From Gammaproteobacteria bacterium (lineage in GTDB: Bacteria > Pseudomonadota > Gammaproteobacteria > JAKDMP01), in the NCBI GenBank assembly GCA_027018875.1, contig JALUYA010000047.1:62001-126000 (forward strand): 64,000 bases of DNA, given 5' to 3'. Below, in pieces: positions 7,715-48,669 of the stretch. Made by a program: the position numbers and the translations under genes. Each line of letters begins with the position of its first letter. Position 1 is the first letter of the stretch. A model generated the notes under the pieces. The model saw only the letters and a program-made list of their open reading frames with translations. It made no database searches and was not told the DNA's origin.

Positions 7715-7738
7715 CAATAAACCTTTATATTTTGCATT

Positions 7739-10998: not shown

Positions 10999-11448
10999 AT
11001 GCGTAAACAGCAACAGGGCTTCACCCTGATCGAACTGATGATCGTGGTCGCGATCATCGCCATCCTGGCGGCGATTGCGATCCCCCTGTACCTCAACTAC
11101 ACCAACCGCGCCAAGCTGTCGGCGACCATCGTCAAAATGGGGCCGGCCAAGACCGCGGTGGCCGAGTACTACTCCACCAACGGCAGATTTCCCGGGAGCA
11201 ACGCTTCGGCTGGACTCAGCTCGCCGACCTCCTACGCCGGCCCGGCCACGGCCTCGGTCACCGTCGGCGCCGGTGGCCGGATCACCGCTCTAACGTCGGG
11301 TGCAAGTGGCAACCTACCCCCTCCCGCACAGGGAAAAACCATCATTCTCAGTCCGGTTGTCGCTGGAGGCGGCGCCTCGATTACCTGGATCTGCAAAAAA
11401 GGCACTACCCCGCCACAATACCTGCCGGCCAACTGTCGTAACCCCTAA
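10999..11448 (+). CDS. pilA: Major type IV pilin PilA
   Basis: This is the structural subunit of type IV pili. The 149-aa prepilin has a short basic leader (MRKQQQG) cut before Phe8 by PilD, then the canonical hydrophobic helix [20 protein letters not shown] with Glu5 of the mature protein. The C-terminal Cys pair (WICKKG...PANC) would form the usual disulfide D-loop. GGAGG lies nine bases ahead of the ATG. It is driven by the sigma-54 promoter just upstream and followed by a strong terminator, so it is probably monocistronic. Confidence 0.96.
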
Positions 11449-11492
11449 AAACCGTCCTCCTCTCGTCGCACGCTGGTGCGGCGGACACCCCT

Positions 11493-11519
11493 ACGGCCCG
11501 CCTCGGCGGGCCGTTTTTT
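11493..11519 (+). terminator. Rho-independent terminator of pilA
   Basis: ACGGCCCGCC and GGCGGGCCGT form a ten-base perfect inverted repeat separated by two bases (the tip would open into a small loop), followed directly by six T. It lies 45 bases after the pilA stop. Confidence 0.92.
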
Positions 11520-11633
11520 AACCCGCCCCCGCGCCCCGAAAACGCCTCCGAATGCCAATGATTGCCAATCACGGCAAGCCGGGGTACACTGGTTCCAGGG
11601 CCTGGCAACCGAAACTCGAGGGAGGGCACGGTC

Positions 11634-13781: not shown

Positions 13782-14497
13782 TGGCTTGCGGATCGCGCGG
13801 CTGGACACACATGGCGCTGTTGGGCGCGGTGCTGGCGCTCGCCCTGCCGGCGGCCGCCACGGGCGCCGCCCCGCGGAACCTGTTCCTGGTCGGCGGACAA
13901 TTCTCGGCGAACGGCGACTCGGCCTATTTGGGCAGTCTCATCCCCCTGGCCGGATCGCGCCTCGGCCAGGGCTGGTTCGTGCGTCCCTGGCTGCAGTACA
14001 CCACCTACCGCTATGTCGGCGGACCGGGCCTGGTCAAGGCTCACGTTCCGGGAGCGGCTTTCGGCTTCGGCTATGGCTGGTCGGGCGCGGGCTGGAGCCG
14101 GGCGCTCTCGATCGCACCGGGCTGGCAGAATACGCATCTCAGTCCGAATGACCCCGGCGCCCGCAATCGCGGCGGCCGGGCCTTTGTGCTCGTCCAGGCC
14201 GAGTTCAGCCGAGCCTTTACCCCCCGGCTCGCAGGCGAGCTGATCGCCAACTACAGCATCGGCCCCCGTCAATACTGGAGCCGGGCGCGCCTGGGCTACG
14301 CCTTTACCCCCCGATTCTCCTTCGGCCCGGCGGCAGGCTACCAGGGAGGGCCGGATTATCACATCTGGCGGGCGGGATTATTTTCCGGCTGGCGCCTTAC
14401 CCGGCACCTGCGCCTGGATACCGGCGCGGGGTATCTCAAGAGTTCGGGGGTGAGCGGCGTCGGCTACGTCAGCCTGTCCCTCAGCATGGGCTATTGA
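13778..14497 (+). CDS. BcsS-like cellulose-locus protein, probable outer-membrane beta-barrel
   Basis: The 239-aa protein has an N-terminal signal peptide (HMALLGAVLALALPAAATGA) and then alternating aromatic/polar strands (WFVRPWLQYTTYRYVG, FGFGYGWSGAGWSRALSIAPG, LGYAFTPRFSFGPAAGYQGG). It ends in YVSLSLSMGY, a terminal aromatic typical of outer-membrane barrels. The pattern resembles the BcsS family found next to bcsA in other Proteobacteria; that assignment rests on overall look and context, not alignment. It overlaps the bcsA stop by four bases, so the two are co-translated. The role of BcsS is not well established. Confidence 0.6.
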   Translation: MMACGSRGWTHMALLGAVLALALPAAATGAAPRNLFLVGGQFSANGDSAYLGSLIPLAGSRLGQGWFVRPWLQYTTYRYVGGPGLVKAHVPGAAFGFGYGWSGAGWSRALSIAPGWQNTHLSPNDPGARNRGGRAFVLVQAEFSRAFTPRLAGELIANYSIGPRQYWSRARLGYAFTPRFSFGPAAGYQGGPDYHIWRAGLFSGWRLTRHLRLDTGAGYLKSSGVSGVGYVSLSLSMGY

Positions 14498-14563
14498 CCC
14501 CGGTCCCGTTGGGTTAAAGCCGGCGCAGCGGCCGCGACAAGGAATCCGAATGGTGCCGCCCGA

Positions 14564-16003
14564 TCAGGGTTGCGGGGAATCAAGGATCGCTCCCCACTCA
14601 TCCAGCGCATCCAGTATCCGTTGGGCCTGGGCATCGCCCGCATGCTTATCCCGGAGCCGCGCGATCCGCGCGTAATAATCCCGCAGGGTGATCCCGTCAA
14701 CCCCCTCTGCATCCCGTAGCCGCCGGTGGCAAAATCGTTCCCAGCGCCGGGCTTCCTCCGGGGACAGGGTCTCCGGCCAGTTTCGGGCCCGGTAACGGAA
14801 TAGCAGTTCCGACAACCGGGTATCGTGAAAATCGAACCGGGTTGTTGCCAGTTCCCGCGGCGAAGCATCACGCACCCGGATTAACAACGCCCGGTCTGCA
14901 TCGCCCAGAAAACCATCATATAGCGCCAGGTCGACGTCCGCGGCGGGGCGGAATTCCCGTCGGCCATAGGCTTGGGCAACTCGCTGGATGAAGCCCTGGT
15001 TCGCACTTAATCGGTGCCAATTCCGGCTACAGGCATCCAGGTCGATCGCGATCCGCTCGACAACCGCTCGATCGAGCGTCTTGGGGGGTGCCAGGGCCGG
15101 GCAGCGGTTGATTTTCACGGACTTGACCGGCAGCCGCTCCACCCCCTCCGGTAAATCCTCAACCCGGGTGAACAAGCGTTCACGCAGACTCGCCTCGTCC
15201 AGATCCAGGAACGGTGCCGGATCCCGGCGCAGATCGTAGACCAACACCCCGTTGGAGTTCCCCGGCTCGCCGACCAGCGGCATGACCAGGGTAGTGCAAC
15301 CGGTCTGGGCCGGGTACCGCCGCGAGGTGTGTACCACGGGCCGATGCCCTACCAGGTCCAGCTGCTCGGCCGCCCGGCGCTTGTCGCGCAGCCGGAATAG
15401 CCAATCATAGAGACGGGGTTGGCGGCTACGAACCCGGCGTGCCAGGCCAAGGGTGGCCTGCACGTCGGACAACGCATCGTGGGCGCGGTCGTGGCCGATC
15501 CCGTTGGCCGCGGCCAGGTCCTCGAGCCGAAAGCTGGGCCGGCCATCGCCGTAGCGGGGCCACTCGATTCCCTCCGGGCGCAGGGCATAGGCCATGCGCG
15601 CCAGGTCGATGATATCCCAGCGCGAATTTCCTTCTCGCCATTCCCGGGCATAGGGATCGTAGAAATTCCGGTACAACGCGTGGCGGGTCACCTCGTCGTC
15701 GAACCGCAGGCTGTTGTAACCCACGCCGCAGGTGCCCGGGTGACTCAGCTCGGCGTGAATGCGGGCGATGAACTCGGGCTCCGGCAGGCCCCGCGCAGCC
15801 GCCAGCTGGGGGGTGATACCGGTGAGCAGGCAGGCCTCCGGGGAGGGCAAACCATCCCGCGCCGGCCGGCAGTAGATGACCAGCGGCTCGCCGATTTCGT
15901 TGAGCGCGGCATCGGTACGCAGCCCGGCAAACTGCGCCGGGCGATCCCGCCTGGGATCGACGCCGAAGGTCTCATAGTCATGCCAGTACAGCGTCACCGT
16001 CAC
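14564..16003 (-). CDS. sbcB: Exodeoxyribonuclease I (ExoI, SbcB)
   Basis: ExoI is a 3'-5' single-strand DNA exonuclease of the DEDD family used in recombination and mismatch repair. The N-terminal exonuclease motif HDYETFGVDP is followed by RPAQFAGLRTDAALNEIGEP, LTGITPQ and GYNSLRFDDE, and HDALSDVQATLGLA carries the last catalytic residues. The C-terminal half matches the ExoI SH3-like and helical region. The start is uncertain: the frame is open to 16138, overlapping addA, but GTG 16003 gives 479 aa, near the E. coli length, and puts the first motif at the expected place. It lies downstream of addA on the same strand. Confidence 0.88.
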   Translation of the reverse strand: MTVTLYWHDYETFGVDPRRDRPAQFAGLRTDAALNEIGEPLVIYCRPARDGLPSPEACLLTGITPQLAAARGLPEPEFIARIHAELSHPGTCGVGYNSLRFDDEVTRHALYRNFYDPYAREWREGNSRWDIIDLARMAYALRPEGIEWPRYGDGRPSFRLEDLAAANGIGHDRAHDALSDVQATLGLARRVRSRQPRLYDWLFRLRDKRRAAEQLDLVGHRPVVHTSRRYPAQTGCTTLVMPLVGEPGNSNGVLVYDLRRDPAPFLDLDEASLRERLFTRVEDLPEGVERLPVKSVKINRCPALAPPKTLDRAVVERIAIDLDACSRNWHRLSANQGFIQRVAQAYGRREFRPAADVDLALYDGFLGDADRALLIRVRDASPRELATTRFDFHDTRLSELLFRYRARNWPETLSPEEARRWERFCHRRLRDAEGVDGITLRDYYARIARLRDKHAGDAQAQRILDALDEWGAILDSPQP

Positions 16004-16116
16004 GGGCTTCGATACCCGCTTGCCGCGTATCGCCCCACCCCGGTGTTCCAGCCGCCCATCACCCGTCGAACCTCCCGGTACCCGCACTTGATTCTGCCAC
16101 AGCAACGACCTCCCGG

Positions 16117-19100
16117 CTACAACGGCCACTCCCGCCACCCCCCCAGAAGCGGGAAATACAGGCCCAGGCGAATCGGTTTTGTTTCTATTTTGCGCATCAA
16201 GGCAGCGTAGCGTTCCAACTGCTGCCGGTAGCGCTCTTGCTCTCGGTCCAAAAATTCTTCGACGCCGCCCCCGGCGTGAATGCCGGTCTTGTAATCGATG
16301 ATCCAGCGGGTGCCGCGTTCATCCACGAATGTCCGATCGATGACCAGGTGGACGATCCCGCCGGCGTGGGCGGCGCTCAGCGCCAGCTCGCAGTGTGCCT
16401 GCTCATGCCGTCCGCTGAGAATCCACTTTCCCCGCGCATCCTGCAGCATCACCCGCAGGGCCGCGCCCACCTTCCCGGCCGCAACCGCAAGATGATCCCC
16501 GGACACTCCCAGGTCGATCAACATCTTGCGGCCAATTCGCTCGAAGCGCCGCAATTCACCGGCCGTAACGGACTCGGCACCCATTGCCCCAATCCGTTGC
16601 AGCAACCGGTGCACCACGGTACCGACGTGTCGCGCGGTCTCTCCGGCCCAATGAAACTCCGGTAACCCGCCGCTGCTCTGCGCGACCGTAGCGGCAACCG
16701 GAACGGATTCCGGCGGGGCCGGCAAGGACCAGTCCGGCGCCAGCCGGGTGCGCCCAAAGGCATGGATCGCCGGTTCAAGTGAATCTTTCGGTTCCGCCGT
16801 GGCACCGCCGGAGGCGGCCAGCAGCGCTCGAAAGTCATTGGCAACCGCCGGCCACAGGCGCGCCAAAAGAGAATCCCGGGGCGGATCCTTGAGTCCGGGT
16901 CCCGATCCGCCATCGGGTTCCCGAACCTCAACATGCCCCAGAAGATGCAGTCGTTGCTTGGCCCGGGTCGCGGCAACATACAGCAAACGTCCATCCTCAA
17001 AGTGCCCCTTCGCGGTGTCCAGCCGCTGCAGGTAGGCCGCCATCGGGTTCTTATCCTCGCCATGGGCGCTGATCGGGGCAAGCAGGAGATCGCTGCCACC
17101 CGACTCCCGGCCCCGCTCCAGCCAATGCAACAGTTTCGCCTCATCACGGCCCGGGCCGCGGCCCAGCCCGGGCACGATCACCGTATCGAATTCCAATCCC
17201 TTGGCCTTATGAATCGTCATCAGTTGCAGGGAATCGTCCGCTGCCACATCCGCCAAGGCAAAGAGCTGTTCGACCTGGCGGTTAAGCTCGGCGATATCCG
17301 GCATATCTCCTTCGCCGCCGAGCCTTTCCAGCAACTGAAAATAGACCTCTCCATCCTCCAGGTCCGTCTCCTCGGTCACGCAAGCCGGACCGCCCAAGGC
17401 GATCCACGCCCCTTCGATGGTACTGCGCAGGGGCCGCCGCGCCTGCTCCGAGAGCAGCGCATCCAGCACCGGCAGCACCCGGGCGATACGCTCTTGACCC
17501 TCCGGGCTCAACCGCTTCAGGCGCCGTTGCTGGTGCAATAAATCGATAATCGTATGCTCGGAATCGTCTCCCGCCAAGGTATGCAGATCCTTCAGCGTCA
17601 GCCCGCAATACGGCGCCCTGAGCACCGCCAGCCAAGCGATGCGATCACCAAGATGGCTCAATGCCCGGGTCAGCGCCAGCAGATCCTGCACCACCGTCCG
17701 GTGTGCCAGGCGCTCGATCTCCACCGCCCGGAAGCGCAAGCCGGCCTCGTGGAGCCGCTCCACGATCCGCGCCAGGTGGGCCCGGCTCCGGACCAGGATG
17801 GCGGTCGTGCCCTGTGGGTGCGCCGCCTTCGCCTGCCGCACCAGCGCCACGACCCGGCATGCTTCCGCGGCATCATCCCGTGCCAACGAGGGATAGACGC
17901 TGACGGCCGCCCCCGCCAATGGCGGGTGAAAGGCGGTCGTCGGCGCATAGGACACGGCGCCGCCGGCAACATCGTCCGCACCCGGCAATATGGCCGGAAA
18001 GTGTTGATTGATCCAATCGACGATCCCCTGCTGCGAGCGAAAATTGACCGCGAGACGGAGAAATTCGAGCGGTACCTGACCGATCCCATGTTTTCTGGCG
18101 GCCAAAAACAAGCCGACTTCCGCTTCCCGGAAGCGGTAGATGGACTGCATGGGATCACCCACCACGAACAGGGTATGGCCATCTCCCGGCTGCCAGCCGG
18201 CCGTTAGGCGCTGGAGTAATTCGTACTGGTTGAACGAGGTATCCTGAAACTCGTCCACCAACAAGTGGCGAATACGATAGTCCAGCGCCAAAGCGAGATC
18301 CGTCGGCGCTTCGGGCTCGCCCAATGCCCGGATAGCCGCCTGGGCCAAGGCGGGAAAATCCACCCGGCCTCGTTCCCGGAATACCAGCTCGAGCTGTGCC
18401 GCCGCCACCCGCAACAGCTCGACCAGGGCCTGCAAGGTTTCCCACTCCCCGGCACTATATCGATGCGGCGGCAACTCCCGCAGCCCAGCCAACTGTTTCC
18501 TGAATTCCTCCTCGTCCGACCACGCCTCCAGCAACGTCGTAATGCGCTGCTTCATCTCGGCAAAGCGGGCCCTGGCATCATTCTTCGCACGACTCGGCGC
18601 CGGAAATCCCTGATCCTTGGTCAAGCGCTGCCGCCAAGCCCCATCCCGGGTCAACAACATTTCCGCCAGCCCTTCCCAGCGGCTACGCTCCGTCACCTGC
18701 CGCCCCGGCAAACCTTGAAGCCCGGCACAAGCGAGGATCGGGGAATCCGTGCCCCGCAGGTTATCCGCGGCGAAGCGGGCCAGCTCGATCAGCTCCGGCT
18801 CCCAAGACCCGGGAACCCGCGCCGCCAGACCGCGCAACGAATCGGTAACCAGGCGGGCCCAGGCCGCTTCCAGGTTTTCCCGTTTCAGGATCGGGTGGCC
18901 CGGATCGGCGACGTGACGCAACCATTGATCCCGGCGGGCGAGCATGGTCGCGATCAGGTCCCGCAATTTATCCAACCGATTATCCAGGTGCTGAACCAAG
19001 TGGGCGATGGCATCCGAGTATTCGGCGCCGGATTCCAATTCGGCAATGGTGTTGCCGGCCGCCTCGAAATAGAGCGATGCGGCGTCCTCGGCAACGGCCG

Positions 19101-35470: not shown

Positions 35471-36136
35471 TCAGTCTTGCAACCGTTCGCGCAAAAAGCG
35501 CAAACTGCGATCCCAGGCAAGGGTCATCGCCGCCCGGTCATAGGTCTTACATTCCGCATTCAGGAAAGCGTGATCCGCTTCGTAGCGATAGAACTCGTAA
35601 GGCCGCCGGGCCGCCTCGAGCCCAGCCGCGAATTCGGCGACCATCCGTGGCGTAATCTCTTGGTCGCGGCTCGCGAAATGCCCCTGCAGGGGCGCCCGCA
35701 CCCTGTCCGGGCTCAGGTGCTCGAGTGGGGGTAATCCGTAAAAGGTGATTGCGGCGCTCACCTCCGGCACATGCGCCGCGGCCAGGACACCGAGCATGCC
35801 GCCGAGGCCGAAACCGATGCACCCGACCCTGCCGCCGAGCGCCAGTCGGCGCGCGGCACCCGTGAGAATCTGCCCCACGACGTGCTCATAATCGAGCGCT
35901 TCCATCGCCTCGCCCGCCCCGATCGTATCGGTATAAGGCACCACCTCACCGGCGTAGAGATCCGGAGCGAGCGCCGCGAAACCCGCAGCGGCGAGGCGTT
36001 CACAGAGCGTATGGATCTGGCTGTTCACTCCCCACCATTCCTGGATCACCACAACACCCGGCGCCTTGACACCCCCGGCACGAAACCCCGTGGCCGCTGA
36101 GCCATCCGGCGTCTCGAACTCGATCCTCTCGGTCAT
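35471..36136 (-). CDS. Dienelactone-hydrolase-family protein lacking the nucleophilic Cys
   Basis: This 221-aa alpha/beta hydrolase has the DLH fold signatures: PGVVVIQEWWGVN (with the helper Glu33), APDLYAGEV, a triad Asp158 in FASRDQEITP and His189 in ADHAFLN. The nucleophile elbow G-x-C-x-G-G reads GFGLGG, so residue 110 is Gly (codon GGC at 35807-35809); a Cys lies four residues earlier. The enzyme may be inactive as a hydrolase or do something else. ATG 36136 (MTERIEFETPDG) is chosen over upstream open sequence. It is coupled to the downstream barrel protein. Confidence 0.85.
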   Translation of the reverse strand: MTERIEFETPDGSAATGFRAGGVKAPGVVVIQEWWGVNSQIHTLCERLAAAGFAALAPDLYAGEVVPYTDTIGAGEAMEALDYEHVVGQILTGAARRLALGGRVGCIGFGLGGMLGVLAAAHVPEVSAAITFYGLPPLEHLSPDRVRAPLQGHFASRDQEITPRMVAEFAAGLEAARRPYEFYRYEADHAFLNAECKTYDRAAMTLAWDRSLRFLRERLQD

Positions 36137-36239
36137 CTCGTCACCATTCCCTGGAAACCGATTGCAAATTGTATAGCGTTGAGGTACTCCGTGCGGGCCG
36201 GGTGAGGCCCCGGCAAGGCGGCGGCGCAAGCGATGGGGG

Positions 36240-36335
36240 TCCAAGCAGCGGGGGCGGCGTCCGGGTCAAAGCGATTTTCTCGGTATCGAGCCGAACAATC
36301 AACGCCTACGGGTCAGCCACGGCGGCGGCGCGAAG
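36240..36335 (-). pseudogene. Remnant of an outer-membrane-factor (TolC/OMF) gene C-terminus
   Basis: Read on the - strand, one frame gives a stop codon followed by ALIVRLDTEKIALT, the same string found near the C-terminus of the intact OMF gene at 46876-48210. At DNA level 31 consecutive bases are identical (36271-36301 against 46937-46967), with scattered matches beyond. An in-frame TAG replaces the Gln codon just before the match, and no start or full frame exists. The scrap lies directly downstream of the first RND pump gene, where an OMF gene would be expected. Confidence 0.7.
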
Positions 36336-36405: not shown

Positions 36406-39400
36406 TCATCGGAATGCGGCCTCGGGCGCAATGGATCGCGGGTGCCAATGCAGGTACAACGCCGGAATCAAGTTGGTCGTCAGCAGGGCGCTCCAGAGGA
36501 TGCCGCCGAGGATCACCACCGCGAGTCCCTGCTCGGGGGCCGCCCCCTGCCCCCAGCCAAGCGCCGTGGGTAGCATGCCGAGCACGGCCGTCAGGGTAGT
36601 CAAAAGGATCGGGCGAAAACGCACCTGAATGGCCTCGGTGATGGCCTCGCGTAGCGGCATCCCGCCACGTTCGTTACGGCGAATACGATGCAGCAGCACG
36701 ATGCCATGGTTCAGGCTGATCCCCACCAGGGTCAGGAAGGCCACCAGTCCACCGAGGTTCAGCCCGACGCCGCTCAGCAGCAGCGCCAGCGCCCCACCGG
36801 TAAAGGCCAGTGGAATTTGCAGCAACAGCAAGCCGGGAACCAGCAAGCCATCGAATTGCAGGACCAGGATTCCCACCATCAAGACCAAGGCCACGATTCC
36901 GGCCAGGCCAAGGCCGATTGCCGCCTGTTCGAGTTCGGGATACAGACCGCCGAAACCAATCCGGTAACCGGGCGGCAAACTCAGGCCGGCGAGCGCCCGG
37001 CGGGCGCTCGAGATTGCGCTCCCCAGCGATCCCCGCGGCGTAGCCAGAATATCGACGGCTCGGGTCCCGTCGATATGACGGATCTGGTTGGGGGTGCTCA
37101 CCCAGCGCAACCGGGCCAATTGCCCCAACGGGGTCCAGCCATCTCGGGTCTCGATGGGAATCGAGCCGAGTTGCCGCAAGGAACGCGCGGGGGCATCGGC
37201 AAGGCGGGTATAAATCGCCAGCGGTAGCGCGCCATCGGGCACCGAGGCGACAATCTCGCCCTGGAGCAGGGGTTTGAGTTGGGCGTACAATCCGGCGGCG
37301 CTCAGGCCATAGATTCCCAACGCGGAGGGTTTGGGCTTGATCCTGATCTGGGTAACGGGATAGGCATCGTTGTTAAAGATGTCCGCAAGCGCAGGAACCC
37401 GACGCAGGCGGTTCGTGATTTTCACCGAAAGTTCACGCAACTCGCCGATGCGATTGCCGTACAGCCGCAAGACGAAGGGTTGGGGAAGACCGGACAGGCT
37501 CTCCCCGACCCGCTCCACGGTCGGGGTATCGAGCGCCAGTTGTACCCCCGGCGAGCGACTTTCATGAAGCAGTCTTCGACCAATCCGATCCAGGCTGTTC
37601 ACATCGACCCCGGGCTTCAGGACAATCATGATCTCCCCCGCCGAAGCCGGCTCGGTGTAGCCGGTATTTACCGCAGAACCGATGCGGGCATAGGTATGGG
37701 CGACGAGCGGGTCGGCTTGCAGGCGCCGGGTGATGCGATTCACCACCGCCTCGGTATCGGCAAACGCCGTTCCGGGCGACAGGGTAAAACTTTCCAGCAG
37801 AACCCCCTCGTTGGGAAGCGAAAGAAAATTGACCGCTACCAGGACGAGACCGGCAAGGCTTGCAAACAACAGCCCCACACAAGCCAGCAGCGCGGTGCGC
37901 GGAAAACCCGCCGCGAGTGCAAACAGCTTTCGGTTCAAGCGATACAGGGTTTCGAGCAGGCGCGTGGCGGCGCTCGGGCGGGTGCGCGGGGCCGCTCGGA
38001 CGAACCCCAGTCCGAGCGGGATCAAACTCAGGGATATGGCCAGGGAAGCCAGGAGGGCAAAGCCCATGGCCAGCGCAAAGGGAAGGAAAAACAACCCCGC
38101 CAACCCGCCGACAAACAGCAGCGGGACAAACACGACCACCGTCGTCAAGGTGCCGGTCAGGTCCGGGCCGGCAATGTCGCGCAGGCCATTGCGGATGCCG
38201 TCCCAGCGGCTCTCGCCTCGCTCCCAGCGATGATAAATGCTCTCGAGCACGATAATGGCGTCATCGGCCAATAGGCCCACGGCGACGCTGAGCGCCCCGA
38301 GGGTCATCAGGTTCAGGCTTTGCCCGGTAAAGAAAAGCCCGGCCACGGCGATGAGAAGCGAGAGTGGAATACTCAGGGCAAGCATCCAGATCCCCCGCCC
38401 CGCTCCCAGGATCCAAAACAGTACCGCGATGGCAAGCAGGGCGCCAATGAGCAGATTCCGCCCCAGGTCGGCTCCGATCAGGTGCACGATGTGGCCCTGG
38501 CTGTAGGCACGGATCCAGCGAACCCCGTGCGGCAACTGGTTCAGGGTTTGATCGAGTGTCGCCTGAACCGCCCGGGTCACGGGCAGGGTGGATGCGCCGG
38601 GCTGCTTGAGCACGGTAATGGCGACACTCGGGCGTCCATCGAGCAACACCGCATTTTGCGCCGGTAGCGGTGCCCGCACGATGCGCGCCAACGCCGCGAG
38701 TGGAATCGGTCCCGAAGGCGAGGTGACCGGCAGCTCCCCAAGGGCACGAATGCTGAGCGGCAGGTTGCGCACCTCGATCAGGACATGGCGGTGACCGGCG
38801 GACAAGTAGCCGCCGGGCTTGAGCAGTACGGCCCGTCGCAACGCCTCGTCGAGCGCCGTGACCGGCACCCGGTAACGACGCAAGGCTTGCAGATCGGGCT
38901 GGACCCAGAGCGACTCCCTGCCCATCCCGTACACCTCGACTCGTTGCACCCCGGGCAACGCCCGCAGGGCGGGAACGACCCTTGCCCGTACCGCGCGTTG
39001 CACCGCGGCCGGCGACACCTGCGGCGGAATTTTTGCGGTGTAATCGGCCACCTCGTTGATGGCGTTTCCCATGATCTCGGCCAGGGGATGAACCGCAAGC
39101 GGCAGCCGCTCCCGGGCCCGGTCAATGGCGCCGTTCACGGCTTGAAGATCCGACTCCACCCGGCTCCCGTTGGTAAATCGCACGTCGGTCCGGACCGTAC
39201 CGTTGCCCATGATGGAACGCACGCTTTGCACCCCGGGCAAGGCGAGAAGTTGCCCTTCGAGGGGGCGGGCGATCGAAGTCTCCAGCTCCGCCGCCGTGGC
39301 GCCCGGTCGGTGGGAGATCACCCGGATCAGGGGAAAGTCGAAACGTGGCAGCACTTCTACGGGAATATGCATCCAGGCGTAGGCCCCCGAAAGGCCCAAA

Positions 39401-39468
39401 AATCCGAAAACCAGCACCCAGAACAGCGGGCGTAGCAACAGCTTCCGGGGCCGATTCGGTTCAGCCAT
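36406..39468 (-). CDS. RND-family efflux pump inner-membrane subunit (system 1)
   Basis: The 1020-aa RND transporter uses the proton gradient to export a substrate through the envelope. TM1 near the N-terminus (PLFWVLVFGFLGLSGAYAWM) is followed by a large periplasmic loop, then TM2-6 with VGLLADDAIIVLESIYHRWE. The adjacent Asp pair in TM4 is typical of proton relay in HAE-type pumps and unlike the DG of heavy-metal CusA pumps. A second half repeats the layout (VGILVLQFDGLLVPGLLLLQ). It begins five bases after the adaptor gene. Substrate unknown. Confidence 0.88.
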   Translation of the reverse strand: MAEPNRPRKLLLRPLFWVLVFGFLGLSGAYAWMHIPVEVLPRFDFPLIRVISHRPGATAAELETSIARPLEGQLLALPGVQSVRSIMGNGTVRTDVRFTNGSRVESDLQAVNGAIDRARERLPLAVHPLAEIMGNAINEVADYTAKIPPQVSPAAVQRAVRARVVPALRALPGVQRVEVYGMGRESLWVQPDLQALRRYRVPVTALDEALRRAVLLKPGGYLSAGHRHVLIEVRNLPLSIRALGELPVTSPSGPIPLAALARIVRAPLPAQNAVLLDGRPSVAITVLKQPGASTLPVTRAVQATLDQTLNQLPHGVRWIRAYSQGHIVHLIGADLGRNLLIGALLAIAVLFWILGAGRGIWMLALSIPLSLLIAVAGLFFTGQSLNLMTLGALSVAVGLLADDAIIVLESIYHRWERGESRWDGIRNGLRDIAGPDLTGTLTTVVVFVPLLFVGGLAGLFFLPFALAMGFALLASLAISLSLIPLGLGFVRAAPRTRPSAATRLLETLYRLNRKLFALAAGFPRTALLACVGLLFASLAGLVLVAVNFLSLPNEGVLLESFTLSPGTAFADTEAVVNRITRRLQADPLVAHTYARIGSAVNTGYTEPASAGEIMIVLKPGVDVNSLDRIGRRLLHESRSPGVQLALDTPTVERVGESLSGLPQPFVLRLYGNRIGELRELSVKITNRLRRVPALADIFNNDAYPVTQIRIKPKPSALGIYGLSAAGLYAQLKPLLQGEIVASVPDGALPLAIYTRLADAPARSLRQLGSIPIETRDGWTPLGQLARLRWVSTPNQIRHIDGTRAVDILATPRGSLGSAISSARRALAGLSLPPGYRIGFGGLYPELEQAAIGLGLAGIVALVLMVGILVLQFDGLLVPGLLLLQIPLAFTGGALALLLSGVGLNLGGLVAFLTLVGISLNHGIVLLHRIRRNERGGMPLREAITEAIQVRFRPILLTTLTAVLGMLPTALGWGQGAAPEQGLAVVILGGILWSALLTTNLIPALYLHWHPRSIAPEAAFR

Positions 39469-39473: not shown

Positions 39474-40535
39474 TTAATCCGGAGCCTGGTAATACTTGGA
39501 GAAATCACGCTGAAACAGCAGGTAAACGTTTTCGACCACCACCTCGGCTCCCGGAGCAAGCCCCCCAAGCAGAAAGGTCTCGCTACCTCGGCTCGGTCCC
39601 GGGATCACCGCGCGCCGTGCGAGCCCGCTCCGGGTTCGCACCAGCACCCACCACCGCCCCCGATCCAGTACCAGGGCCCGGGTAGGAACCGCCACCAGGG
39701 TCCGGGGTTCCCCGGACAGGGTCACCGTACCGGCCTCGCCGGCAACCCACCCGGATCCCCTCCCTTGTGGCAAGAGTCCGACCCCGCGCGCGCCGTCGGC
39801 ACGAACCAGCGACAAAATGCTCACCACCCGAACCGGGATGGACTTCGAGCCGCCGAGCGGAGAAAACCAGCCGCGCATGCCGCGGTGAATTACCGCGGCA
39901 TCGTGGCCATAAAACTCGGCAAGCAGCCACAGGCTCCCGGGCGCTTGCAGGCGCAGAACGACCTGGCCCGCGCTCACCCGTTCGCCCTCGGCCACGGCCA
40001 GGGAAACGACCGTACCCGAGACCGGGGCCTTCACGAGCGTTTCCGCGCGCGTTGCCCGTAGCATGGCCGCGGCCGCCCGGAGTGTTTGACGGGCCTCGCT
40101 TGCGGCACCGCTCAACCGCGCCAGGGCGCCGCGGGTAATCCAATGCCCGAAATATTGTCCGCGGGCGACCCGCAGCACCTCGCGTGCCGTTTTCAATCGC
40201 ACCCGCGCCGAGCTCACGGCCGCTTCGCGGGCGGCTAAAAGAGAGTTGATCTTCGGACCCGCCAACCGGGCCACGGCGACACCGGCCCGGAGCCGTTGCC
40301 CCGGCAATATCTCGAATCGGCTCACCCGCCCGGGCAGCGCCGCCCTCAAGGACAACAGGGCGATCGGCCTCACGCGGGCAAAGGCAAGGTAATGCGGCTC
40401 TACAACCCGCTTCCGGGCCGCTACCGTCCGCCGTAGCCCAGCGGATGTTTCGGCTCCGCCCGCCATCGCCGTGCCTGCAAGAGCGGCCAGTATGAGCGGC
40501 AGCAAAAGCAGATAACGCGAGCCGAAATATTGCAT
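39474..40535 (-). CDS. RND efflux periplasmic adaptor (membrane fusion protein, system 1)
   Basis: The 353-aa protein has a signal peptide (LLLLPLILAALAGTAMAGGA), a lipoyl/barrel-sandwich half (ALPGRVSRFEILPGQRLRAG, VKAPVSGTVVSLAVAEGERV) and alpha-helical hairpin segments rich in Ala and Arg. It ends with the beta-barrel and membrane-proximal parts (FLLGGLAPGAEVVVENVYLL). The frame runs open to 40871, but ATG 40535 is the first start that exposes the signal peptide. It is divergent from the response regulator and is the first gene of the adaptor-pump pair. Confidence 0.85.
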   Translation of the reverse strand: MQYFGSRYLLLLPLILAALAGTAMAGGAETSAGLRRTVAARKRVVEPHYLAFARVRPIALLSLRAALPGRVSRFEILPGQRLRAGVAVARLAGPKINSLLAAREAAVSSARVRLKTAREVLRVARGQYFGHWITRGALARLSGAASEARQTLRAAAAMLRATRAETLVKAPVSGTVVSLAVAEGERVSAGQVVLRLQAPGSLWLLAEFYGHDAAVIHRGMRGWFSPLGGSKSIPVRVVSILSLVRADGARGVGLLPQGRGSGWVAGEAGTVTLSGEPRTLVAVPTRALVLDRGRWWVLVRTRSGLARRAVIPGPSRGSETFLLGGLAPGAEVVVENVYLLFQRDFSKYYQAPD

Positions 40536-40536
40536 G

Positions 40537-40553
40537 GCCTCTAGTATAGAGGC
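40537..40553. promoter_or_regulatory. Inverted repeat adjoining the adaptor start codon
   Basis: GCCTCTA-GTA-TAGAGGC is a perfect 7-bp inverted repeat one base upstream of the adaptor ATG (cat 40533-40535 on the + strand). It lies in the 214-bp gap between the divergent adaptor and response-regulator genes. On the mRNA it would form a small hairpin over the ribosome-binding site (AGAGG); on DNA it could be an operator for the neighbouring regulator. No known consensus was recognised. Confidence 0.4.
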
Positions 40554-40749
40554 ATCCGCCGCCACTGCCCATCGAATCTTCATTACAATTGTTTCATCCG
40601 CCCGCCTCCACGGCAATCGGGCAAACCCGTTGCCGCAGCGCATGGAGGCAATCGCCCGAACGGCACCCGCCCCGACAATCCTCGGGTGCGGACACTTTCC
40701 TTTACTGCTTAAAATGCGTAAGCTCGATCTGCTCCCGGGGTATGCCACG

Positions 40750-41427
40750 ATGCTCATTCTTGTCGTCGAGGACGACGCCGAACTTGCGCTCGATATTGTC
40801 AATGGACTGATCGATGCCGGCCACACGACAAGCCGGGCCGAATCGCTGGCCCAGGCCCGCGCGGCCTGCAATCAACGAACACCCCGGATCGTCGTGCTCG
40901 ATCGCCTGCTGCCCGATGGCGAAGGCTTGGAACTGATCCCCTGGCTGCGCCGCCGACATCCCGCGGTAAAAATCCTGGTGCTCTCGGCCCTCGCATCGGT
41001 CGATGCCCGCGTCGGCGGACTGAACGCCGGCGCCGACGACTACCTGGGAAAACCCTATGCAATGCCCGAATTGCATGCCCGGATCAACGCCCTGGCCCGC
41101 CGCGACGACGATGCCAACCAGCCATGCCTCGGGAGCGGCGCCCTGGTGCTCGATCGTATCCGCCGCCGGATAACGGTCGGCGGAGAATCCCTGCGCCTGA
41201 AGCCACGTGAATACCTCCTGCTGGAGTACCTGTTGCTGCATTCGGGCGAAGTCGTCAGCCGCGAGATGATCCTGCGCGATGTCTGGGGGTACAACTTCGA
41301 TCCCGGAACCAACGTGATCGATGTCCACATGAGCCGCCTGCGCGCCAAGCTTGCCGCGACCGCGGCCGCCGGCTGCCTCGAGACCGTCCGCGGCGAAGGG
41401 TATCGCCTGGACGCGCTCGGCGCATGA
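40750..41427 (+). CDS. OmpR/PhoB-family response regulator
   Basis: The 225-aa protein has a receiver domain (MLILVVEDDAELALDIVNGL; Asp in LDRLLPDGEGL; Lys in GKPYAMPELHARI) and a winged-helix DNA-binding domain (LRLKPREYLLLEYLLLHSGE, NVIDVHMSRLRAKL). ATG 40750 begins exactly at the receiver; upstream ATG 40714 is possible. Its stop overlaps the kinase ATG. It lies between two RND systems and probably regulates at least the divergent one (inference). Confidence 0.9.
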   Translation: MLILVVEDDAELALDIVNGLIDAGHTTSRAESLAQARAACNQRTPRIVVLDRLLPDGEGLELIPWLRRRHPAVKILVLSALASVDARVGGLNAGADDYLGKPYAMPELHARINALARRDDDANQPCLGSGALVLDRIRRRITVGGESLRLKPREYLLLEYLLLHSGEVVSREMILRDVWGYNFDPGTNVIDVHMSRLRAKLAATAAAGCLETVRGEGYRLDALGA

Positions 41428-42773
41428 GCACAGCGACGCGGTTTTCGCTGCTGCGTACCACCGCTTTCCGTGTGGCCGCCCTGTATGCCTTCCTCTACGC
41501 ATTTCTCACCGCCGCCATCGTCGCGATGGTGCTGGTGGCGACCCATGATCAGATCGGGGCCCAAGTCCAAGCCGGCCTCAAGGCCGAATCCCTGGCCCTT
41601 ACCGCGCTATACGTCAACCGGGGAAGTATCGCCCTGGTACACGCCGTGGCCCAAAGGAGCAACGCCGTATTTGTTCCGGGCGACCGGGATGCGGACGATC
41701 CGGGCCGCCGATTCTATGCCTTGGCGAGCGCGCAAGGCAAGATACTCGCCGGAGATTTCCGGCATTGGCCCACGGGTGCACCGACCCGAGGCTGGTTTCG
41801 TTTCCGGTTCCGTGGCGGCGGGCCCCGCATCGAGGCCTTGGTGCGCCCCTTGCCCGGCGGCAACCGTCTCCTGATCGGCCAATCCCTGCGCATACCCGAC
41901 CAGCTGACAGACAGTTTCAAGCTCTGGGGAGCCGTGGCCGCCGGATTGATGTTTCTCGCCGGCCTGGCCGGAGGCGTCGCCATCGGACGCAGCGTCATGA
42001 AGCGCATCGCCGGCGCCAGTGCAACCGCCGAGCGGATTCGCGGCGGCCGCCTGGGTGAGCGGCTCGATGAGACGGGACCCGGCGAGCATGTCGTACTCGC
42101 CCGGGCGTTCAACGCCATGCTTGAACGCATCGAAACGGCGGTCCTCGGCCTGCATGACCTCGGCTCACGCATGGCCCACGAGATAAAACACCCGCTGGCC
42201 CGCGCCTCGCGGGCGCTCGAGCGCGCGGCCACCGCCACCGGAAGCGATCCGGGCAAGGAGATCGCCCATGCCCGCGAGGAGCTGGCCGAGCTCGATCGCC
42301 GTGTCGAGGCGCTGTTGCGGCTGGCACAACTGGAAGGCGGCGCGAGCACGGAGTTCTTTCGCGAATTCGACTTGGGCGCCCTGGTGGCGGATCTGGCCGA
42401 ACTCTACCTGCCGGTCGCACAAGAATGCGGCCAGCGGATCGAAAACCACACCCGGGGCCGAGTACGCTGCACCGGGGATCGTCAACTGATCGCCCAGGCC
42501 CTGGTCAACCTGCTGGAGAATGCTTTGCGCTACGCGCCGCGAACCGCTCCGATCATCCTCACCGCCCGCGCCGCCGGCCGGCAACTGGTACTGGAGGTGC
42601 ATGACGGCGGCAAGGGCCCTCCGGAAGGCGGCGGCCGCCGCCCGGGAGGTGCCGGCCTGGGACTTGCTATCGCTCGCGCCATCGCCCGCTTGCATGAGGG
42701 AACCCTCGAGCTCGAACACGACTCCACAGGGTTTACCGCCCGGCTGAGAATGGCCGCGACGGCCGGCGCCTAA
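41424..42773 (+). CDS. Sensor histidine kinase partner of the OmpR-type regulator
   Basis: The 449-aa kinase has TM1 near residues 15-40 (VAALYAFLYAFLTAAIVAMV), a periplasmic domain of about 130 residues, TM2 (WGAVAAGLMFLAGLAGGVAI), a HAMP-like segment (RSVMKRIAGASATAERIRGG), the H-box RMAHEIKHPLARA, N-box LVNLLENALRYAP and G-boxes HDGGKG and GGAGLGLAIARAI. The sensor domain has no recognised metal motif, and the signal is unknown. ATGA overlap with the regulator. Confidence 0.9.
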   Translation: MSTATRFSLLRTTAFRVAALYAFLYAFLTAAIVAMVLVATHDQIGAQVQAGLKAESLALTALYVNRGSIALVHAVAQRSNAVFVPGDRDADDPGRRFYALASAQGKILAGDFRHWPTGAPTRGWFRFRFRGGGPRIEALVRPLPGGNRLLIGQSLRIPDQLTDSFKLWGAVAAGLMFLAGLAGGVAIGRSVMKRIAGASATAERIRGGRLGERLDETGPGEHVVLARAFNAMLERIETAVLGLHDLGSRMAHEIKHPLARASRALERAATATGSDPGKEIAHAREELAELDRRVEALLRLAQLEGGASTEFFREFDLGALVADLAELYLPVAQECGQRIENHTRGRVRCTGDRQLIAQALVNLLENALRYAPRTAPIILTARAAGRQLVLEVHDGGKGPPEGGGRRPGGAGLGLAIARAIARLHEGTLELEHDSTGFTARLRMAATAGA

Positions 42774-42794: not shown

Positions 42795-45700
42795 TCAACC
42801 TCCGCCGGGCGCATCCGCCCGGACCCTACCCAGGCAAAGGCGGTAGGTCACCGGAACCACGATCAGCGCGAGCGGCAACTGGACCAGCAGGCCGGAAACG
42901 ATCGCGATCGCCAGCGGCTGCAACATCCGGGCTCCCTGCCCCATGCCGAAGGCCAGCGGTACGAGCGCGAGGATGAAGGCCAGCGTGGTCATCAGGATGG
43001 GACGCAGGCGGTTGGCCCCCGCCTCTACCAAGGCATCGTAAAGACCCAACCGCTTACGCACCTGCTCCAGCTCGGAAAAATAAAACACCGCAAGCTCAGT
43101 CACGATACCGACGATCATGGTCATGCCCATGATCGCGGCGATGTTCAGCTCGGTTCCCGTGAGCCACAGCCCCAGGAACACAGCCGGCAGAGCGAACAGC
43201 GGCGCGACGAGGATCGCCAGGGCGATGCGGAAGCGTTCGAACTGGTACAGCAAGGCGAAAAACACCAACGTCAGGGCGGCGAGAAAAACGATGACCAGGT
43301 CGTGAAAGGCGATCTGTTGCTGCCGATAAAGTCCGCCAAGCCGGTAATACACCCCCGGGGGAAGAAACCCCGGCCTGTCGAGCACCTGGCGCACATCGGC
43401 GAGCGCCGCCCCATAGCCGCGGCCCTGAATCCGGGCCGAGACCGTGACCTCGGGCTTGAGATCGTAGCGCGTCAGTTGCGCCTGACCCACCACCGGCACG
43501 AGGCGGGCGACCTCCCCGAGCGGAACCAGACGCCCGGCGGGCGTACGCAACATGAGCCGCCCGATCTGCCTGCGCGTCGCCCGGTCCGCGCGTGGCACCC
43601 ACACCCGCACTCCGACCATTTTCTGCGGCTTTTCGATCCGGGTGACCACCCGGCCGGCAAGATAGGTCTCAAGCTGGTTGGTGATCGCCCTCGGGGTGAG
43701 CCCCAGAAGCCCGGCACGCATGCGATCGATTTGAACGCGCAGCGAATCGCCGGCGATAATCACCCCGTCCTGTACTTCATCCAGTCCCGGAACCCGGCTT
43801 ATCGCCCGTGCCACCCTGGGGGCGAGGCGGTGCAAATCACCCGCATCGCCCCCGAACAGGCGGATCACCACCGGGCGGGGCGAAGAGGTCAGGTCGCCGA
43901 TCAGGTCCTGCATCGGCTGCTTGATATCGAGAATGGTGAAACCCGGCACCTCGTGCCGAATCCGCCGGGCGATTCTGGCCATCACTTGCTGCTGCTGCGC
44001 CGGGCGGCGCAGGCGAATAAAGAAGTCCCCTTCGTTTTGCTCGGTAATCCCGCCTCCGAGCTGCGCCCCGGTTCGCCGCGACCAGTTGCGTACCTCGGGC
44101 GTCGTCGCCAAAATATGCGCAACTTGTGTGATCAAGCGATCGGTTTCCTTCAGCGAGGTACCGGGCAGGGTCCGGTAATCGAGTACGAAACCACCTTCAT
44201 TCATGTGCGGCATAAAGCCCGAACGGGTGTAGTGAAAGCCAAGAAATCCGAGCCCGAACAGCGGCAGGAGCCCGGCTAGCAGCCAGGCGGGATGTACGAC
44301 CAGCAGGCGCATCAAGCGGCGGTAGCCGTCGCGCAATGCCTCCATAAAACGGCCGTTTCGTTCGAGCGCCCGCGCGTCTTTGTCATCCATCAACCGGTCC
44401 GCGATGAGCGGCAGCGCGATCCAGGCATACAGGAACGAAAGCGCCAGGCCGGCAACCATGGTCAGCGAGAGCGCCTTGAAAAAGGCGCCGGTAACCCCGC
44501 TCAGGAAAGCCAGCGGCAAAAAAATGATCGTGGTAACGAGCGAGGAACCGATCAGGGGCCGGGTGAACTCCCGCCCATAGGCAAGCATGGCCTCCGGCCT
44601 ATGCCCATCCTCGCCCAGGCGACGGCCCAGATGTTCCAGCATCACGATCATGTCGTCGATGATCAGCCCCACGGCCGCCGCCATCCCACCAAGAGTCATG
44701 ATATTGAAACTAAGGCCCGCCAGATACAGCACCAGCACCGTGCTCGCAAGCACCGCGGGAACCGCAAGCAGCGCAATCAACGTCAATTTAAAATTACGCA
44801 GGAAAAGAAGCAGAATTCCCATCGCAAACAGCACGCCGAGCGCGAGCGCGTCGCGTACCGAAACCGCCGATGCCTCGATCAGCCCGCTCTGGTTGTACCA
44901 CTGCCGAATCGTGACTCCCGCGGGAATCACCTTGCGGTACGCCTTGAGTCGATTGGCAATGGCGCGATCGATTGCGACCGTATTGCCTCCCAGCTGTTGA
45001 TAGACCATCACCAGGACCGCCCGCTTGCCGTCGGCGCCGACCGTCATCCACTGCGGCATCACCGCGGCATGGACCGTTGCCACATCGGCCACCGTAACCA
45101 CCCCATCGGGCCGCGCGCGGATCACCACCCGGGCGATGGCGGCGGGGCGCTTGACCTGGTTATCGGAAAGCACCAAGTACAACCGGTAATGGGCGCGGTA
45201 ACGCCCGAGCGCCGCCACTACATTTGACCGGGTCAGCGCGCGCTCCACCGCCGCGAGACTCAGCCCGTACCGAATCAACTTGCCCGGATCCACGCTCACC
45301 CTGTACTCGGCGATTTTACCGCCGAGAATAGCCACCCGCCGCACTCCCTTCACTCCCGTGAACAATGGCAAAAGCGTTTCGCGGGCGATATCGCGCAGCG
45401 CCACCTGCGATAGCGTCTTGGCGCTCAGGCTGTAGGCGATCACCGGAAAGGTGGTCGGGTCCATACGCCGGGCGAGAAAGCTCGTGCCCGGCGGTAACCG
45501 CGGCATCACCTGGTTGATCGCCGCCTCCACCTGCAGCAGCGCCCGCGACATATCGGTACCCCAATTGAAACGTAGCGACAGGTCCGTCGCCCCGCGGCTG
45601 GTGGTGGAACTAATCGCGGTAACCCCCGGTACCGCCCGGACGGCGAATTCGAGCGGGCGTGTAACCAGGAGTTCTTCCTGGCGTTCAGGACGCGAGCCGG

Positions 45701-45851
45701 AATCCACATTCACCTCGATGCGTGGGAACATCACCGCCGGAAACAGCGCCACCGGCAGACGAAAGACCGAAAAAATGCCGGCACCCGCCAGCACTGTCAA
45801 CAGGAACAGGGCGGAGCGTCGGTGTCGGCCGAACCACTCGGTAAGACTCAT
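42795..45851 (-). CDS. RND-family efflux pump inner-membrane subunit (system 2)
   Basis: This 1018-aa transporter starts MSLTEWFGRHRRSALFLLTV, coupled to the adaptor stop by ATGA; the open frame upstream is not used. TM4 reads GLIIDDMIVMLEHLGRRLGE with the Asp pair, and the large loops carry FTILDIKQPMQDLIGDLTS and PVVIRLFGGDAGDL. The family resembles transporters annotated as acriflavin/CzcA-like resistance proteins; the DD motif argues against a classic Cu/Ag pump. It completes the OMF-adaptor-pump operon. It is only distantly similar to system 1 by eye. Confidence 0.88.
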   Translation of the reverse strand: MSLTEWFGRHRRSALFLLTVLAGAGIFSVFRLPVALFPAVMFPRIEVNVDSGSRPERQEELLVTRPLEFAVRAVPGVTAISSTTSRGATDLSLRFNWGTDMSRALLQVEAAINQVMPRLPPGTSFLARRMDPTTFPVIAYSLSAKTLSQVALRDIARETLLPLFTGVKGVRRVAILGGKIAEYRVSVDPGKLIRYGLSLAAVERALTRSNVVAALGRYRAHYRLYLVLSDNQVKRPAAIARVVIRARPDGVVTVADVATVHAAVMPQWMTVGADGKRAVLVMVYQQLGGNTVAIDRAIANRLKAYRKVIPAGVTIRQWYNQSGLIEASAVSVRDALALGVLFAMGILLLFLRNFKLTLIALLAVPAVLASTVLVLYLAGLSFNIMTLGGMAAAVGLIIDDMIVMLEHLGRRLGEDGHRPEAMLAYGREFTRPLIGSSLVTTIIFLPLAFLSGVTGAFFKALSLTMVAGLALSFLYAWIALPLIADRLMDDKDARALERNGRFMEALRDGYRRLMRLLVVHPAWLLAGLLPLFGLGFLGFHYTRSGFMPHMNEGGFVLDYRTLPGTSLKETDRLITQVAHILATTPEVRNWSRRTGAQLGGGITEQNEGDFFIRLRRPAQQQQVMARIARRIRHEVPGFTILDIKQPMQDLIGDLTSSPRPVVIRLFGGDAGDLHRLAPRVARAISRVPGLDEVQDGVIIAGDSLRVQIDRMRAGLLGLTPRAITNQLETYLAGRVVTRIEKPQKMVGVRVWVPRADRATRRQIGRLMLRTPAGRLVPLGEVARLVPVVGQAQLTRYDLKPEVTVSARIQGRGYGAALADVRQVLDRPGFLPPGVYYRLGGLYRQQQIAFHDLVIVFLAALTLVFFALLYQFERFRIALAILVAPLFALPAVFLGLWLTGTELNIAAIMGMTMIVGIVTELAVFYFSELEQVRKRLGLYDALVEAGANRLRPILMTTLAFILALVPLAFGMGQGARMLQPLAIAIVSGLLVQLPLALIVVPVTYRLCLGRVRADAPGGG

Positions 45852-46879
45852 TGCCCGATTTCCCGCACCAGCATGCCGTCCTTCAACTCGTGGTTTCCGA
45901 TGTTCACCACCCGCTCCCCGCCGCGGAGCCGGCCCGACACCAGGGCCTGGCCTCGCCGCATCACCAGGAGTTTTACCGGCACCCGCATGGCCCGGTCGCG
46001 GCGCACCACGAAAACATGGTAGCCGCCTCGACCGGGGAGCAGCGAGCTTTCGGGAACCAACCACCCTAAGAAATTGCCCGTCGTGATCCGGGCACGTAGC
46101 CATTCCCCGGGTAGAAGACCCGGATTGTGCTGCAGATAGACGATTGCATCGACAAAACCGCTTGCCGGGTTGACCTGTCTGCCCACGCTGCGGATCCTCG
46201 CCCTCGGCCCCCTACTGGAACCACGGCGTCCGAATACCGGGCTGAGAGCAACCGGCATCCCGGGGCGTACCCGGGTACTCTCCCTCGCCGTGAGCCCGAG
46301 CCGAATCCAGGTGCCGGCCGTAGGATTAATCCCGAGCAACGGCTGTCCGGCGGCCACCCATTGCCCTTGCTCGACTCTTATCGCCGTCACGGTAGCCGCT
46401 TGTCGCGCCCGAATCAGGCGCACGGGCCGACTCGCTCCTTCGGACACGAGCGCCGCCAGATCCGCCCGCAGCTTGATCCACGTTGCCCTGGCCGCGGCCA
46501 GCCTCGCCCGGGTAGAGAGCCCCTCCCGGGCGAGCCGCCGCGCCTGCTCCAGCCGTGCGGCCGCCGCCCGGAGCGCCGCCCGGGTCCCGCGGTAGGCGGC
46601 AAATGCCCGGGGCTGGGCCACCTCGATCAGCGCCTGGCCAGGCGCCACCACCTCCCCGGGATTTACCAGCAATCGCACCACGCGCACCGGCCCCGCCGCG
46701 CTTATCCAGACGCGGGCCCGGGGCAGGTTATCCACCTGGCCATAGACCGTAAGCCTCCGCGCGAGGTGCTCCATTCTCACCGCTTGGGTGCGGACCTGCG
46801 CCACTGGAGCGGAAGTTGCACCGAACCCGGCACCGGCGTAGAGCCCGATCCCGAAAAGCACAAAGACCCGAAGTTTCAT
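45848..46879 (-). CDS. RND efflux periplasmic adaptor (membrane fusion protein, system 2)
   Basis: The 343-aa adaptor has a signal peptide (MKLRVFVLFGIGLYAGAGFG), lipoyl halves (AAGPVRVVRLLVNPGEVVAP and ATVTAIRVEQGQWVAAGQPL), a short helical hairpin rich in Ala and Arg, and the beta-barrel/membrane-proximal end (SGRLRGGERVVNIGNHELKD). It bridges pump and outer-membrane channel in the periplasm. The start overlaps the OMF stop by four bases and its stop overlaps the pump start, so all three proteins are made from one message. Confidence 0.86.
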   Translation of the reverse strand: MKLRVFVLFGIGLYAGAGFGATSAPVAQVRTQAVRMEHLARRLTVYGQVDNLPRARVWISAAGPVRVVRLLVNPGEVVAPGQALIEVAQPRAFAAYRGTRAALRAAAARLEQARRLAREGLSTRARLAAARATWIKLRADLAALVSEGASRPVRLIRARQAATVTAIRVEQGQWVAAGQPLLGINPTAGTWIRLGLTARESTRVRPGMPVALSPVFGRRGSSRGPRARIRSVGRQVNPASGFVDAIVYLQHNPGLLPGEWLRARITTGNFLGWLVPESSLLPGRGGYHVFVVRRDRAMRVPVKLLVMRRGQALVSGRLRGGERVVNIGNHELKDGMLVREIGQ

Positions 46880-48210
46880 CGCCGCCGCCCGCTAAAGGAG
46901 GAAAATCCGAGCAACGTGCGCAGCGTCAGTGTCAAGGCGATTTTCTCGGTATCGAGCCGAACAATCAGCGCCTGCTGGTTCATCCATGCCGCGTAGGCGG
47001 CGTAGGCCGCGAGCCGATTCATCGCCCCGGCGCGAACCGCCGCGAGGGCCCCCCGGGCGCCGTGTTCTATCGCGGGAGCGTGACTCCGTGCCGCGACGAG
47101 TAACCTCCCCACCGCGTCCAGGCGTTCGTGCACGCTCAGAATCCGGTTCATGCCGGTATCGAGGTGTAACAGGTAGGCGGCGCGTAATGCCCGGCGCGTG
47201 GCCCGAGCGATGGCAATTTGCCCCCGGTTGCCATTGAACACGGGCAGCCGCAACGAGATGCCGAGCCCAATGGCGTTATTGCCGGCGGTATCGCGGCTCC
47301 GGTTCAGCCCGAGCGACAGCAGGGGAAACTGGGCCAGGATTGCGGCCCGCAGCCTCGCATCGGCGCCGGCATAGCCTGCCCGCAGCGCCCGCAAGTCCAG
47401 CCGCCTTGCAGCCAAGCTCGCCAATGCCCGGTCCACCCCGGCCGCGGCGACGGGCCGCACCGCGGCCGGGGCATGGAGTCGAAGGGGCGTTGTCGCCCGC
47501 AGGGCGAGCAGGTTCGCCAACCGGGCGTGAAACCGCAGCTCGGCTCGATCAAGAGCCCCCAACCGCGATTGCAGCGCCACCCACCGGGTTTCGAGCCGGG
47601 CGTAAACAAGTGTGGTCAACGCCCCCGCGGCCCGGGCGCGCCGGGCCGCCCGGAGCGTGGCGCCCAAGAGTGCCCGCGCCTGTCGTCCATAGCCGATTTC
47701 CTGTTTCACGGACCACAGACGCAAATAAGCGAGCCGCGCCTTGAGGGCAACTTGTTCGGCCTGCCAGCGCCACCCCAACAATGCGGCGGCATAGCGGGCC
47801 CGCGCCGCCTGGTGGCGACGGCCCCGGGTGATCAAGGCGATCAGGCCGGCATCCAGGCCGGCGCTCCAGCCGTTGAAGGAATCCGGACCACTCAGCAAAT
47901 AATCCCCACTCAAGCCGAGCCGGGGATCCGGCAACAGGCCCGCCGCATAGGCCCGGGCCTTCTCGACTTCGACCCGCCCGCGCAGCGCCTGCAACACCGG
48001 GGCACGCATCACCGCCAAGCGCCCGACATTACCAAGGCTCAGCGTCACTCCCGCCGGTGCCGCCGTTATCGCCGCTGCCAAAGAGTTCTGCAGGTTGTCG
48101 CGTGGCGGTAGCGGCAAGGCATGGTAGCTCGTGCACCCCGCGAGCAGCATCACCACCACGCCACCCAACAGGCTCCTGTTTCCGATCGGTTGTATCCGAT
48201 GAAGCGACAT
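46876..48210 (-). CDS. Outer-membrane efflux lipoprotein, TolC/OMF family (system 2)
   Basis: This 444-aa outer-membrane channel has a lipoprotein signal (SLLGGVVVMLLAG then Cys26) and repeated helical/coiled-coil halves (KARAYAAGLLPDPRLGLSGD, LRAAILAQFPLLSLGLNRSR, IGLGISLRLPVFNGNRGQIA). ATG 48210 is eight bases after GGAGG; the nearer ATG 48216 has too short a spacing. It is the first gene of the OMF-adaptor-pump operon. Its 3' part shares 31 identical bases with the pseudogene remnant next to system 1. Confidence 0.86.
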   Translation of the reverse strand: MSLHRIQPIGNRSLLGGVVVMLLAGCTSYHALPLPPRDNLQNSLAAAITAAPAGVTLSLGNVGRLAVMRAPVLQALRGRVEVEKARAYAAGLLPDPRLGLSGDYLLSGPDSFNGWSAGLDAGLIALITRGRRHQAARARYAAALLGWRWQAEQVALKARLAYLRLWSVKQEIGYGRQARALLGATLRAARRARAAGALTTLVYARLETRWVALQSRLGALDRAELRFHARLANLLALRATTPLRLHAPAAVRPVAAAGVDRALASLAARRLDLRALRAGYAGADARLRAAILAQFPLLSLGLNRSRDTAGNNAIGLGISLRLPVFNGNRGQIAIARATRRALRAAYLLHLDTGMNRILSVHERLDAVGRLLVAARSHAPAIEHGARGALAAVRAGAMNRLAAYAAYAAWMNQQALIVRLDTEKIALTLTLRTLLGFSSFSGRRR

Positions 48211-48669
48211 GAGCATATCCTCCAGTCCCCGGGATAAAATCCAGTGTGAAAACTTAACCCGATTTCTTGCCCTCACCCTGCCCGGATCGCCCGGAACCCA
48301 CCCCGGGCACAAAAATCCATCTCGAATGACCCGTCCAGAGAGCGGACAAGGGGGTGGCACATCGGTCACGCACTGGAAACGTGGCGGGCGGGTACAAAAC
48401 ATAAAAAATACGCAAAAATCTCTGCCTTATTCACCTTCTCTGAAGGCGGAATTCTCGATCCGGAGTAAAAGTAAAAACTCTCGATTCCACTCTATCGTGA
48501 ACCGGCCCTAATGGGAACCTTTTCCCGATTACAACTCGTTAATGTGCCGGAGGGTCCAGGGTGCTTGCCCTACGCCGCCATGCAGAATCCAATGCAGGCT
48601 CTTTACTTTCAAAACCCCTTTTTTTATCATGCGGCATAGACCGTGCTTGCTCCTGATCAAGGGGGAAAT
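48211..48669. other. Intergenic region between divergent efflux operon and orphan membrane gene
   Basis: About 460 bases without a convincing gene. The part from about 48390 to 48500 is clearly richer in A and T than the rest of the window (runs such as ACATAAAAAATACGCAAAAA), so promoters for both directions probably lie here. I could not fix -35 and -10 boxes. Short open frames here lack ribosome-binding sites. Confidence 0.5.

Follow-up and report, generated by a model that had tools for sequence, protein, structure and literature searches.

What is the short DNA segment that lies directly behind the RND1 pump gene at this locus, and why is a run of 31 bases within it identical to part of an intact outer-membrane factor (OMF) gene 10.7 kb away? 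A sequence-only reading had described the segment as the remnant of an OMF C-terminus and offered three origins for the identity: duplication followed by decay, a gene-conversion tract, or a conserved DNA or RNA element lying in the coding region. The window, that is the whole stretch of DNA that was analysed, comprises 64,000 nt of the forward strand of assembly GCA_027018875.1 (Gammaproteobacteria bacterium; contig JALUYA010000047.1, positions 62,001-126,000). It carries two RND systems of the drug- or metal-pump type, arranged on the minus strand in the order OMF, MFP2, RND2, MFP1, RND1, fragment and dienelactone-hydrolase gene, with an opposed two-component system on the plus strand between RND2 and MFP1 (Table 1). 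Intact OMF genes and full-length RND permeases each number five in the 2.2-Mb genome.

Table 1. Features of the pump cluster and of the OMF fragment, in window coordinates.
Feature	Position	Strand	Basis
Dienelactone-hydrolase-family gene, downstream of the fragment	35471-36145	-	PF01738, E 4.4e-42
OMF pseudogene fragment, C-terminal end only, frameshifted, in-frame stop	36240-36335	-	Local alignment to 46906-47005; E 1.4e-17 in own genome
31-bp exact island common to fragment and intact OMF	36271-36301	-	Exact pattern match
TAG stop opposite CAG (Gln) of the intact gene	36306-36308	-	Alignment
RND1, RND permease, system 1, directly upstream of the fragment	36406-39468	-	PF00873, E 1.8e-166
MFP1, membrane-fusion protein, system 1; ORF reaches 40871	39474-40700	-	HlyD_D23/HlyD_3 domains
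Response regulator and histidine kinase, between both pump systems	40534-42773	+	Pfam PF00072/PF00486 and PF02518/PF00672
RND2, RND permease, system 2	42795-45860	-	PF00873, E 5e-200
MFP2, membrane-fusion protein, system 2	45848-46879	-	TIGR01730 above cutoff
Intact OMF gene, 508 aa ORF, OEP domain	46876-48402	-	Pfam PF02321, E 3.9e-16
31-mer copy inside the intact OMF, codons ~LIVRLDTEKIA	46937-46967	-	Exact pattern match

A decayed OMF fragment behind RND1

The segment was aligned to the intact OMF under two scoring schemes. With the stricter one, positions 36240-36319 pair with 46906-46986 over 81 columns, of which 68 are identical and one holds a 1-base gap; with the looser one the alignment covers the whole fragment and 80 of 100 columns are identical. 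Alignment scores of 94 and 55.5 were obtained, compared to maxima of 36 and 23 in 500 dinucleotide shuffles. The homology reaches past the 31-mer on both flanks with the order preserved; the flanks retain about 74% DNA identity to the intact gene, and the earlier description of the surroundings as strongly decayed is therefore overstated. When the 261 bases around the fragment were searched against the whole genome, the intact OMF was the sole match (E 1.4e-17, 85% over 74 bases) besides the fragment. The fragment lies 70 bp past the RND1 stop codon in direct orientation relative to the intact OMF, corresponds to approximately the last 32 codons of the gene and ends in register about 30 bp short of the gene end. 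Its description as a degraded OMF C-terminus placed directly downstream of RND1 is thus borne out.

The stop codon noticed in the sequence-only reading is indeed in frame, a TAG replacing a glutamine codon of the intact gene. That reading had also called for a count of the substitution pattern. The mismatches between fragment and OMF are spread evenly over the codon positions (6/6/4), a count of few events that is indicative only; as changes are even over the three positions, the fragment appears to have decayed as non-coding DNA. Homology beyond chance, disabling changes (stop, frameshift and truncation) and loss of coding constraint are all present, and the segment 36240-36335 is an OMF pseudogene fragment (OEP family, PF02321). 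In its surroundings, no remnant of a second copy was detected for the 93% of the OMF gene that the fragment lacks, for MFP2, for RND2 or for the regulator region.

Origin of the 31-base identity

The 31-mer, GCGATTTTCTCGGTATCGAGCCGAACAATCA, is exact at both sites, as had been noted before, and none would be expected by chance. Allowing up to 3 mismatches, no third copy was found in the window, the only sites in the 2.2-Mb genome were the fragment and the intact OMF, and 368 further genomes of the class had no copy; no exact match was found in the IMG/VR viral contigs. Occurrence at many unrelated non-coding places had been named beforehand as the mark of a repeat element. With two genomic sites, none in the 368 class genomes and no viral-contig match, a repeat element is ruled out.

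A conserved DNA or RNA element (a binding site, a structured RNA or a terminator) present both in the OMF coding region and behind RND1 would also produce an exact island, and the existence of the island and its location downstream of the operon are what speaks for it. Against it, no codon position of the island is conserved in the OMFs of relatives: the stretch is weakly conserved, with 1-2 of 11 residues matching and third positions matching in a fraction of only 0-0.18. The island folds no better than shuffled sequences (z 0.83, -0.23 and 0.38), no Rfam family matched it, and searches for terminators and promoters at the island gave no match; a structured RNA or a terminator is ruled out by these results. 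Together with the absence of the 31-mer from the 368 class genomes and from viral contigs, they make a conserved element of any kind extremely improbable, and this option of the sequence-only reading was dropped. Constraint on the encoded protein was likewise rejected as the source of the identity, as ALIVRLDTEKIA shows no conservation across the family, and the third positions of the relic match as well. Because the stretch is poorly conserved in the OMFs of relatives, the identity stems neither from protein constraint nor from an old conserved DNA element. The island identity reflects a recent common copy.

We then asked how unusual an exact run of this length is. Under random placement of the mismatches, exact runs of 31 bases or more are obtained with p 0.013 (13 mismatches in 81 columns) or p 0.005 (20 mismatches in 100 columns), and a scan allowing any two-rate segment gives p 0.05; the site was selected for its long run and these p values are therefore weak evidence. 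A 31-bp exact run in a uniformly decaying relic of 80-100 bp is thus only mildly unusual (p ~0.005-0.05). The excess over random placement is one of two points in favour of gene conversion, by which a short tract from the intact OMF would have partly overwritten an OMF relic behind RND1 that was older and already diverged; the other is that the two copies are in direct orientation and 10.7 kb apart. However, the excess shrinks to p 0.05 once any segment is allowed, in a finding picked for its run, and the flanks themselves speak against an old relic. They show about 74% DNA identity to the intact gene, whereas separate OMF lineages show just 30-42% amino-acid identity and, over this stretch, agree in 0-45% of bases at each codon position. 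As the flanks are far closer than separate OMF lineages, they too derive from a recent copy. Gene conversion, the second of the options offered earlier, is thus possible, but it is not needed to account for the island, and we consider it unlikely. A further proposal, that ongoing gene conversion holds the island identical and that the relic thereby serves the last OMF codons as a reservoir or a handle for recombination, is more doubtful still and would be very surprising.

Affiliation of the OMF and its usual place in related pumps

In a tree of 64 rows, the intact OMF is placed among OMFs located before MFP2 (98/85 support for its grouping with L085 and L086) and outside a large clade made up of RND1-downstream OMFs; its best blastp match is also L085 (42%). 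Its branch is long, and in an AU test a placement with the RND1-downstream OMFs was not rejected (p 0.136). By tree support and best matches, the intact OMF looks like a system-2 type, although this assignment is not formally decisive. The fragment is far nearer to the intact OMF than to any other OMF in the data, so that either it must be a recent copy of that gene or both must be copies of one recent ancestor. Since the intact OMF appears to be of system-2 type, the fragment looks like a copy of that OMF and not like an independent old OMF of system 1.

A comparison with genomes in which system 1 keeps its own OMF had been suggested in the sequence-only reading. RND1 relatives were fetched (n=80, 54-70% identity), 70 of them with enough flanking sequence. 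An OMF lies directly downstream of RND1 in the same orientation in 45 of the 70 (44 counted by script, plus L071, whose OMF match overlaps the RND1 end); in the others, the OMF is upstream of MFP1 (6), at other spots in the locus (3) or not detected (16). Because an OMF is commonly found behind RND1 in relatives, the fragment sits at the usual OMF place. Most of the OMFs found there belong to a different clade from the OMF of the window. In 28 relatives that have no OMF next to RND1, a protein search of the region behind the pump gene detected no remnant, and one as short as the fragment could escape such a search. One genome of the same family (G001) was compared and contained no close relative of RND1, of the dienelactone-hydrolase gene or of the DUF5916 gene.

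Cluster order is highly variable among relatives. The same two pump systems occur in two different orders with one OMF gene each: L008 carries MFP1-RND1-OMF-MFP2-RND2, in which the single OMF adjoins both pumps (8001-16518), and L041 (genome G056) carries OMF-MFP2-RND2-MFP1-RND1, with a single OMF for both pumps (450-10008). The regulators also differ in position. In genomes G262 and G241 (L131 and L132), the regulator most similar to that of the window (48-50% identity) sits divergently upstream of the system-2 OMF; the regulator pair of the window lies between RND2 and MFP1 and is divergent from system 1. Regulation of the two pump systems may have been rewired relative to G262 and G241. In L131, the RND2 homologue beside the closest relative of the window's OMF (11071-14095) is split into two frames (11071-12123 and 12125-14095); either the pump gene is frameshifted or the sequence may contain an error.

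Combined, these results indicate that the fragment is very probably the decaying 3' end of a second OMF copy behind RND1 that arose by duplication and was subsequently truncated and degraded. Duplication followed by decay was the first of the options put forward in the sequence-only reading, and the homology of the flanks, the mismatches over the codon positions and the stop codon all agree with it. We infer the route and the direction of the duplication as follows. A second copy of the OMF gene, sharing a recent ancestor with the intact system-2 OMF, would have come to lie directly behind RND1, the usual OMF place in this pump family. The duplication may have taken in the whole OMF, for example if the two-pump cluster was duplicated in tandem, or its 3' end only. 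What is left of the copy is truncated, frameshifted and interrupted by the stop, and it yields no product. The MFP1-RND1 pair of system 1 presumably now docks to the intact OMF, at a distance of 10.7 kb, or to another OMF encoded in the genome.

Three points count against this account: no other piece of a second copy is found near the fragment, which leaves a full-length copy conjectural; the AU test does not reject a placement of the intact OMF with the RND1-downstream OMFs (p 0.136); and the exact run somewhat exceeds the length predicted by uniform decay (p 0.005-0.05). Within the duplication reading, it is conceivable, and we hold it tentatively, that just a piece of about 100 bp from the 3' end of the OMF was copied in the rearrangement that joined the pump systems, and that a full second OMF never existed. 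The lack of any trace of the rest of the gene and of MFP2 beside the fragment is consistent with this, as are the large differences in cluster order between relatives. In contrast, the very site that the fragment occupies holds a full OMF in 45 of 70 relatives, which favours the loss of a once-complete gene.

Comparison with known efflux systems

The outer membrane efflux protein family (PF02321, OEP, of the TolC-OprM type) provides the first comparison: the fragment aligns to the C-terminal end of a family member, but unlike such members it is non-coding, spans about 32 codons and, with its frameshift and stop, cannot make protein. The closest parallel is found in P. aeruginosa. In strain PAO1 and most serotypes, a truncated oprA lies downstream of mexXY, behind mexY; MexXY uses OprM, an OMF encoded by another pump operon, and this sharing was tested; strains of serotype O12 are known to carry oprA intact (PMC3516279). 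Both loci contain an RND operon with a small portion of an OMF gene, in place of a full one, behind the RND gene; they would also resemble each other in the loss of a downstream OMF gene and in the use of an OMF from another pump operon. They differ in that sharing of an OMF was tested in P. aeruginosa, whereas we infer it here by analogy, and in that an intact downstream gene is known there in O12 strains. Unlike oprA, the remnant here closely copies the OMF found in the adjacent system.

The fragment suggests that both pump systems of the window share one channel. It points to no new mechanism and lends support to a picture in which outer-membrane channels are time and again acquired, shared and lost by RND pump operons. 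In conclusion, the fragment is very probably an ordinary relic of gene duplication, of a kind already described beside the efflux pumps of P. aeruginosa.
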